Shown: one piece after another, positions 24,538-25,485 of the stretch
Layout of the letters: each line of letters starts with the position of its first letter
How positions within the stretch are numbered: the first letter of the stretch is position 1
NCBI RefSeq assembly: GCF_001546115.1
Contig: NZ_KQ955208.1
Span: forward strand, 2,061,198-2,125,197
Origin: Paracoccus aminovorans
GTDB lineage: Bacteria > Pseudomonadota > Alphaproteobacteria > Rhodobacterales > Rhodobacteraceae
DNA length: 64,000 bases
Direction of reading: 5' to 3'
The notes under the pieces: generated by a model
Database searches by the model: none
Told to the model about the DNA's origin: nothing
Seen by the model: only the letters and a program-made list of their open reading frames with translations
Position numbers and translations under genes: made by a program

Positions 24538-24572
24538 GCGCTGCGCTTAAACCGAAGGGCCGGAAATGAAAA

Positions 24573-25071
24573 GCGGCGGCGCCCAGGGAGGAGGAGGGGG
24601 CACCGCCGCGCAACGCTGGCCCAGGGAGGAGGAGGGGCCGCGTATGGGGTGCGGCAATGGCAGGGAGGAGGAGGCCATTACCGCATGTCGACGATCCCAG
24701 GGAGGAGGAGGGGACCGTCGCATCCGAACCCGCCTTGCGGCGGAAGTTTTGGGCGGCACCTCCAGGGAGGAGGAGGGAGGCGCCGCCGGAACAGCCAGGC
24801 CCAGGGAGGAGGAGGGGCCGGACCGTATCGGTTTGGCGGCGCCCCAGGGAGGAGGAGGGGGCGGCCGCCGGAACCGCGAAACCCAGGGAGGAGGAGGGGT
24901 TTCGCCGTATGGGGTGGCGGCATCCCCAGGGAGGAGGAGGGGGAGCCGCCTTAAGTGCAAGACCCAGGGAGGAGGAGGGGTCTTACCTTATCTGAGCGGC
25001 GGCATCCTCTAGGGAGGAGGAGGGAGGATGCCGCCTGAACCCGGACCCAAGGGAGGAGGAGTGGGTCGGGT
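24573..25071 (-). ncRNA. Twelve-hairpin CcsR/'cuckoo'-type small RNA array with anti-Shine-Dalgarno loops
   Basis: On the plus strand AGGGAGGAGGAGG recurs at 24585, 24623, 24662 (12 of 13 bases in the loop), 24699, 24764, 24803, 24846, 24885, 24928, 24966, 25011 and 25050 (variant, AGGGAGGAGGAG), spaced 37-65 bp. Each copy is flanked by an inverted repeat of its own: for example GGCGGCATCCT / AGGATGCCGCC around 25011, GCGAAACCC / GGGTTTCGC around 24885, and TGCGGCAATGGC / GCCATTACCGCA around 24662. The stems differ but stay paired. Nearly all imperfect pairs are G-U on the minus strand. The RNA therefore reads minus, with loop CCUCCUCCUCCCU, and starts 10 bp after the DUF1127 stop. R. sphaeroides CcsR RNAs share the loop motif and DUF1127 linkage. 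Confidence 0.88.
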
Positions 25072-25081
25072 GTCCGAATTC

Positions 25082-25395: not shown

Positions 25396-25485
25396 ACATG
25401 GCCCGTTTGCTGCGCTTGCACAATGGACGAAGACGCCATGCTGCTATGCAGAAACGGCATGGCTGTTTCGGGAACCCTGTTGCAA
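25396..25485 (-). promoter_or_regulatory. Candidate RpoH-type promoters for the DUF1127/small-RNA unit
   Basis: Reading the minus strand, two candidates resemble alphaproteobacterial heat-shock sigma promoters (TTG in -35, CCATNT-like -10). The proximal one is TTGTGC (25423-25418), 16 bp, CCATGT (25401-25396). The distal one is TTGCAA (25485-25480), 17 bp, CCATGC (25462-25457). Assignment rests on motif similarity and on the known RpoHI/RpoHII control of the R. sphaeroides counterpart. Confidence 0.4.

Follow-up and report, generated by a model that had tools for sequence, protein, structure and literature searches.

The window, a 64,000-nucleotide stretch of Paracoccus aminovorans DNA analysed as a whole, carries on its minus strand a DUF1127 gene, an array of anti-Shine-Dalgarno (aSD) hairpins directly behind it and, downstream, rlmJ (PF04378) on the same strand (Table 1). 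The preliminary description of this DNA had listed twelve motif copies 37-65 bp apart, following a DUF1127 gene. All 12 CTCCTCCTCCCT loops were found on the minus strand at 24585-25061, each within its own predicted stem, with loop cores spaced 39, 45, 38, 43, 39, 43, 39, 65, 37, 39 and 38 bp in order, and the gene directly upstream matched PF06568. Hairpins 8 and 9 are separated by the 65-nt spacing, and a thirteenth hairpin, without the motif, lies between them.

Table 1. Coordinates of the promoter elements, gene, hairpins and predicted terminator of the DUF1127-array locus in the window
Feature	Position	Strand	Details
Box 1, PhaR-operator-like palindrome CTGCATAGCAG	25441..25451	minus	Exact CTGCNNNGCAG match
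-35 TTG of predicted RpoH-type promoter	25421..25423	minus	Geometry compared with PMC3441632
Box 2, TGC-rich TTGTGCAAGCGCAGCA (TGCN4GCAG)	25408..25423	minus	Overlaps -35
-10 CCATGT	25396..25401	minus	A-12, T-11 and T-9 if TTG is taken as -36 to -34
DUF1127 gene, ccaF1-like, 75 aa	25082..25309	minus	PF06568, 45.2 bits, E 7.5e-12
aSD hairpin 1 (unit 1)	25038..25073	minus	Loop core 25050-25061; folds, arm-swap test
aSD hairpin 2 (unit 1)	24999..25034	minus	Loop core 25011-25022; folds, arm-swap test
aSD hairpin 3 (unit 2)	24954..24989	minus	Loop core 24966-24977; folds, arm-swap test
aSD hairpin 4 (unit 2)	24916..24951	minus	Loop core 24928-24939; folds, arm-swap test
aSD hairpin 5 (unit 3)	24873..24908	minus	Loop core 24885-24896; folds, arm-swap test
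aSD hairpin 6 (unit 3)	24834..24869	minus	Loop core 24846-24857; folds, arm-swap test
aSD hairpin 7 (unit 4)	24791..24826	minus	Loop core 24803-24814; folds, arm-swap test
aSD hairpin 8 (unit 4)	24752..24787	minus	Loop core 24764-24775; folds, arm-swap test
Plain hairpin CCGCC-GCAA-GGCGG, without aSD motif	24730..24743	minus	Between units 4 and 5
aSD hairpin 9 (unit 5)	24687..24722	minus	Loop core 24699-24710; inside RF02344 match 24608-24726
aSD hairpin 10 (unit 5)	24650..24685	minus	Loop core 24662-24673; inside RF02344 match
aSD hairpin 11 (unit 6)	24611..24646	minus	Loop core 24623-24634; inside RF02344 match
aSD hairpin 12 (unit 6)	24573..24608	minus	Loop core 24585-24596; GC-rich stem, predicted intrinsic terminator
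U run TTTTCATTT (RNA sense) of predicted terminator	24564..24572	minus	Directly after hairpin 12

Folding, unit structure and family of the array

We folded each copy with its loop held open and obtained 11-18 spanning base pairs per copy. In an arm-swap test, the 3' arms were reassigned randomly among the 12 units and the total constrained folding energies were compared. The results showed a total of -287 kcal/mol for the real arms versus -175 kcal/mol (sd 15) for the permuted ones, and 0/20000 permutations reached the real value. The 521-nt minus-strand stretch folded with z = -11.75, and all aSD loops were open in the minimum-energy structure. The claim that every copy lies in its own inverted repeat with pairing kept is thus borne out, with folding well beyond chance, and the loops are nearly invariant, as had been proposed: CCTCCTCCC is present in 12/12. 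The further claim that the stems differ almost completely did not hold. They alternate, with a GGCGG-type stem base in 5/6 second hairpins of pairs (hairpin 10 is the exception).

The spacings in the window alternate as well, the short one first (permutation P = 0.008). The same short-first alternation was found in 60 of 75 distinct array sequences of at least five hairpins from Rhodobacteraceae, among which a few may be truncated copies of others, and 0/5000 permutations were as extreme. From the alternating stems and spacings, we therefore read the array as six units, the building block being a unit of two hairpins. The spacing suggests that the array would give rise to 6 RNAs of 2 hairpins each. 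Among even-numbered arrays of the genus, AUA occurs in 51% of the 96 linkers between units and in 5% of the 118 linkers within units, an enrichment that is only suggestive of processing between units by RNase E or the DUF1127 protein.

A T run follows the last hairpin within 40 nt in 61/88 arrays and follows internal hairpins within 28 nt in 20/640, the two search distances being unequal. Given these array ends and the U run after hairpin 12 in the window, the terminator itself most likely bears an aSD loop.

The plain hairpin at 24730-24743 is of GNRA type, and a gap of 62-67 nt occurs at the same place in four fetched loci (L003, L004, L006 and L030). The spacer structure between units 4 and 5 may thus be conserved in relatives. 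One of these loci, the P. kondratievae array (L030), has 12 hairpins and an architecture very close to that of the window array.

We searched the genome with the Rfam covariance model RF02344 (ar14), the family of the cuckoo, CcsR and NfeR1 RNAs. The best match, on the minus strand at 24608-24726, scored 60.4 bits against a gathering threshold of 58.8, and a second match within the array was also above the cut-off (58.9 bits). All five matches with E <= 0.001 genome-wide lie at the window array. The kinship with CcsR and cuckoo RNAs proposed earlier is therefore supported, and the array almost certainly belongs to the ccaF1-CcsR (cuckoo/ar14) locus type. CcsR1-4 of R. sphaeroides are reported to share a transcript with the DUF1127 gene ccaF1, which starts from an RpoHI/RpoHII promoter, ends at a terminator and is processed by RNase E (PMC10253847). 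The window shares with that 'CIN1' locus type the DUF1127 gene followed by predicted aSD hairpin RNAs, a predicted RpoH-type promoter and a predicted 3' terminator, and each of its units, like RS0680a, has two aSD hairpins (PMC3927594). It differs in having six two-hairpin units rather than the four CcsR RNAs of R. sphaeroides (PMC10253847), and in a last aSD hairpin that is itself terminator-like. NfeR1 (alpha-r14, RF02344) of Sinorhizobium meliloti carries the same aSD motif, CCUCCUCCC, in hairpins with variable stems (PMC10746234). Unlike the window array, NfeR1 is a single RNA of three hairpins with its own sigma-70 promoter and NtrC/LsrB control, and the available text on it mentions no DUF1127 operon.

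That the repeats matter instead as DNA, as plus-strand RNA through its G-rich AGGGAGGAGGAGG runs, or merely as a barrier to transcription separating the DUF1127 gene from rlmJ is very improbable. The plus strand of the array does fold better than its shuffles (z = -4.5), and hairpin 12 with its U run lies just ahead of rlmJ. However, the minus-strand fold is far stronger, and it is to the minus strand that the Rfam match, promoter and U run point.

The preliminary description had regarded twelve hairpins as a strongly expanded array. Cuckoo-type RNAs are reported to have 2 to 4 hairpins per RNA (PMC4504443), and the four CcsR RNAs of R. sphaeroides would amount to about eight hairpins if all of them, like RS0680a, have two each. 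Motif pairs were found in 119/121 genomes of the genus and 245/295 of the family, although the pattern's backward control gives hits in many of them as well (7 in this genome) because loops such as CCCCTCCTCC match the pattern in reverse. Array presence was therefore judged from folds on fetched loci. The 37 distinct array sequences fetched from the genus have a median of 10 hairpins (range 2-16), the 67 from other genera of the family a median of 6 (maximum 26), and the 105 among the matches listed in a scan of named genomes a median of 3. These samples follow search order and are no random census, and the hairpin caller gives false positives, including four hairpins each at Akkermansia and Streptomyces loci among the matches listed. 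The counts do not support a strong expansion, and we rejected a reading of record length: twelve is ordinary for the genus, and the window array is a further, larger member of a locus type already described.

The longest array among those fetched, with 26 hairpins, is in genome G205 (locus L141, where the array starts at 386 on the minus strand) and also occurs once truncated to 25. It consists mostly of near-identical repeats of ~140 nt with three hairpins each, thus of three-hairpin rather than two-hairpin blocks, and looks like a recent tandem expansion. In Mesorhizobium/Rhizobiaceae, five loci (L036, L059, L060, L076 and L096) have six-hairpin arrays (five called in L060) arranged in two groups ~80-100 nt apart, with two DUF1127-motif matches in front. 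Another locus, L010 (G008:C4:72731-75841), has two aSD hairpins followed by a T run, with a PhaR-like CTGCAATGCAG upstream and no DUF1127 motif found nearby; it is possibly a second, separately controlled cuckoo RNA.

The predicted promoter and its PhaR-operator-like motif

The predicted promoter, absent from the preliminary description, holds the most informative signal at the locus. Box 1 lies 28 nt ahead of an RpoH-like TTG/CATGT pair and matches exactly CTGCNNNGCAG, which the introduction of PMC12542648 gives as the site of PhaR in R. sphaeroides. PhaR is reported to repress phasin genes and, in C. necator, to be sequestered from DNA onto PHB granules (PMC12542648). Box 2 recurs as TTGTGCANNYGCAGCA in relatives; its 4-nt spacer departs from the quoted PhaR consensus, and PhaR may bind there. 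Within the 64-kb window, CTGCN3GCAG has 4 matches versus 3.0 expected, neither rarer nor commoner than chance, so that the box match alone is no signal; what counts is where the box lies and how well it is conserved. A single PhaR-RpoH composite is present in this genome, and it lies at the array promoter.

PhaR is encoded in this genome (PF05233, 47.3 bits, C3:128714-128833), and its phaP promoter contains CTGCACCGCAG and CTGCGGTGCAG 30 nt apart. The array promoter thus resembles phaP promoters, which have two TGC palindromes ~30 nt apart around the -35, both in this genome and at S. meliloti phaP1/2 (PMC12542648). The phaP promoter differs in driving a granule protein and in having a sigma-70-like rather than an RpoH-like -10.

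We counted CTGCN3GCAG over the 340 nt preceding the DUF1127 motif and found it in 49/68 non-redundant DUF1127-array loci versus 4/511 control windows. RpoH-like elements ahead of the motif were present in 29/68 loci versus 4/511 control windows. Box and RpoH-like element occurred together in 28/68 loci, 28-29 nt apart in 26 of these 28. The box was also found, within one mismatch, in 46/51 arrays versus 0/69 control windows, leaving five arrays without a good box; this set comprised arrays with at least four hairpins and sufficient sequence upstream, not individually checked for PhaR.

The looser -35-based pattern CTGCATNGCAG-N13-23-TTGTGCA hit 87 places in 84/198 family genomes, with 0 in the reversed control. 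Among 30 places fetched, 29 precede called aSD hairpins and one lies elsewhere; two or more hairpins follow at 27 of the 29, and one hairpin at two places near contig ends. The PhaR-RpoH composite, tried as a finder, was rejected as less specific than this pattern (45 places in 41/198 genomes, backward control 2): of its 30 places fetched, 14 precede hairpins, one has a DUF1127 motif without called hairpins and 15 look like chance.

PF05233 matches were found in 190/198 family genomes, leaving eight without a match. Two of these eight, G043 and G190, are complete and have arrays, and in both the box has decayed (ACGCATAGCGG and, by eye, GCGCATGGCGG), while the TTG and a promoter-like skeleton remain (by eye). 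An intact box in 0/2 of these genomes versus 46/51 arrays gives a Fisher P = 0.015, in a comparison that rests on two genomes and has low power because 190/198 genomes have PhaR. Among the remaining six, G138 (84% complete) has the operator exact, G206 (71% complete) has it with one mismatch, and G073, G130, G176 and G197 have no motif pair. Taken together, box 1 is probably read by PhaR.

The locus may instead be an ordinary ccaF1-CcsR stress operon, which RpoHI/RpoHII would induce under heat, under oxidative stress or in stationary phase, and whose RNAs would adjust C1 and redox metabolism with no role for PHB. The TTG/A-12/T-11/T-9 arrangement is compatible, in sequence geometry, with RpoH promoters, at which A-12, T-11 and T-9 are reported to be important (PMC3441632), and the R. 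sphaeroides precedent includes the RpoHI/RpoHII promoter, the target flhR and an effect of CcsR1-4 on the glutathione pool (PMC8307010, PMC10253847). In other family members the -10 is often TATCTT or TAAATT, with strict RpoH geometry in 9/30 and relaxed geometry in 20/30, and sigma specificity is therefore uncertain. On this reading the TGC-rich palindrome would be the site of another regulator or a structural element of the promoter. Against it, the box equals the published PhaR consensus and recurs in the phaP promoter of this genome, and neither of the two complete genomes that have an array but no PhaR match has an intact box. We consider the plain stress operon rather unlikely.

Control by PhaR has a precedent in MmgR (alpha-r8) of S. 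meliloti, a PHB-linked sRNA with an aSD loop that is repressed by AniA/PhaR (PMC7143759, PMC12542648). MmgR differs from the window array in belonging to another RNA family and having one aSD loop, and the available text of these sources mentions no array or DUF1127 gene. The available text of PMC10253847 mentions no PhaR-type operator for the R. sphaeroides ccaF1-CcsR1-4 locus, unlike the window. Literature searches pairing PhaR with CcsR, CcsR1 or CcaF1 gave no report of such an operator among the papers listed, a coverage that excluded the primary CcsR, cuckoo and CcaF1 papers. Within that coverage, a PHB-granule operator would be the new element of cuckoo arrays, the array type itself being known.

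At short arrays (3-6 hairpins, among the matches listed in the scan of named genomes), CTGCN3GCAG was found upstream in 10/78 versus 4/189 control windows. The box positions vary, and the matches include one from Rhodobacterales (L044) and one of unclear origin (L016). We therefore do not extend the operator claim to rhizobia. One rhizobial locus, L120 of Shinella sp. SUS2, has a three-hairpin array with a PhaR-like palindrome, TGCTGCAATGCAGCA, ~40 nt upstream of the first loop and near the RNA start.

Candidate targets and proposed function

The loops match the mRNA-binding tail of the ribosome and are complementary to AGGGAGGAGGAG. We searched this genome for start codons preceded by loop-complementary Shine-Dalgarno (SD) sequences. 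The pattern GGGAGGAG-N2-8-ATG occurred at 29 places versus 2 in the reversed control, and 15/29 were uptake-type transporter genes by Pfam: periplasmic binding proteins, DctP, TctB/TctC, two ABC ATPases, a branched-chain-type permease, GntP, AmiS/UreI and two MFS proteins, the import direction of the ABC ATPases and MFS proteins being assumed. The control pattern AAAGGAGA-N2-8-ATG occurred at 27 places (reversed control 4) and included two transport genes, one of exporter type. Uptake genes were significantly more frequent behind GGGAGGAG than behind AAAGGAGA in this genome (15/29 vs 2/27, P = 0.0003). These counts come from scans of 26/29 target matches (excluding the antisense of the array itself and frames of 28 aa and 6 aa) and 24/27 control matches (excluding a second copy of an IS110 gene already scanned and two very short reading frames).

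The same search was made in G205, G194, G170 and G141, which gave 27, 14, 27 and 23 matches, of which 22, 12, 15 and 18 were scanned (only reading frames of at least 100 aa were included, and five G170 matches lacked fetched sequence). The scans give family counts rather than the individual matching proteins, with one protein counted per transporter family match and paired families (SBP_bac_1/8, Peripla_BP_5/6) counted once. Uptake-type genes made up 8/22 and 3/12 in array-bearing genomes versus 1/15 and 3/18 in array-less ones, and pooled 11/34 versus 4/33 (P = 0.044). As counted by these SD matches, the transporter bias is strong in this genome and weak elsewhere, and GGGAGGAG could just be an SD that transporter genes often have. 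For NfeR1, predicted targets are reported to be mostly transport genes, along with silencing of ntrBC (PMC7143759, PMC10746234), and its aSD motifs act on specific mRNAs (PMC10746234). With this precedent and the bias in this genome, SD pairing, raised earlier as a possible action of the loops, appears likely.

Alternatively, the twelve loops could serve as a sponge that absorbs the DUF1127 protein or a translation factor, or that lowers free SD sites globally, with no chosen mRNAs. Such a role would suit a hairpin number that ranges from 2 to 26 while the loop motif recurs (the motif being required in the search), and in R. sphaeroides CcaF1 binds RNA and affects CcsR maturation (PMC10253847). 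It is improbable, however, since the GGGAGGAG-SD genes are strongly biased to uptake in this genome and the NfeR1 motifs have specific targets.

One GGGAGGAG-SD gene encodes a LuxR-type response regulator whose best match, ErdR, is below the cut-off. Beside it lie an ABC transporter and NosP-like and ErcS-like genes (both below the cut-off); ~7 kb away is a quinoprotein-relay gene (above the cut-off). The setting is reminiscent, by analogy of neighbouring genes, of that expected for flhR, the C1 regulator that is the CcsR target in R. sphaeroides and is not a transporter (PMC8307010). Such a gene in an flhR-like setting also speaks for the stress-operon reading set out above, and the non-transporter target in R. 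sphaeroides weighs against a brake on import.

We lean, by a narrow measure, towards the DUF1127-array operon as a whole being a carbon-storage-controlled translational brake on nutrient import. When PHB is scarce, the operon would be repressed by PhaR bound at box 1 (25441-25451) and possibly also at box 2 (25408-25423). As PHB granules build up, they would draw PhaR away from the DNA, a shift reported for phasin genes in Cupriavidus necator, and the operon would then be transcribed with an RpoH-type sigma factor. Transcription would stop at hairpin 12, and cleavage between units, of the kind that RNase E performs in R. sphaeroides, would yield about six two-hairpin RNAs. By pairing with SDs of the GGGAGGAG type, each CCUCCUCCUCCC loop would silence mainly solute-uptake genes, in parallel with a C1/alcohol-type response regulator. 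What is seen comprises the predicted folds, the covariation, the family match, the two-hairpin periodicity, the conserved operator motif with its link to arrays and the uptake excess in this genome; from these we infer expression of the operon, PhaR binding, processing and silencing.

A wider extension, which we hold more tentatively and would put somewhat below even, is that the cuckoo arrays of Rhodobacteraceae form the output arm of a PHB gauge, in which PhaR leaving DNA for storage granules would let a multi-copy set of aSD RNAs stop translation of carbon and nitrogen importers, with hairpin copy number setting the gain. If true, a physical carbon store would directly throttle uptake, and the conserved operator of a storage-granule repressor would offer a reason for the metabolic effects that CcsR RNAs have in R. 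sphaeroides. The purpose of aSD arrays would then become directly testable, and a route from intracellular polymer level to nutrient import would be relevant to bioplastic production.

Elsewhere in this genome, the only perfect TGCTGCNNNGCAGCA lies at G000:C1:271696-271710 (L191 ~1501-1515), between a HAD-type gene and a MaoC-like frame, the gene names coming from reading translations. It stands directly upstream of the MaoC-like frame, which has 148 aa and is, from this position, a candidate for a further PhaR-controlled gene.
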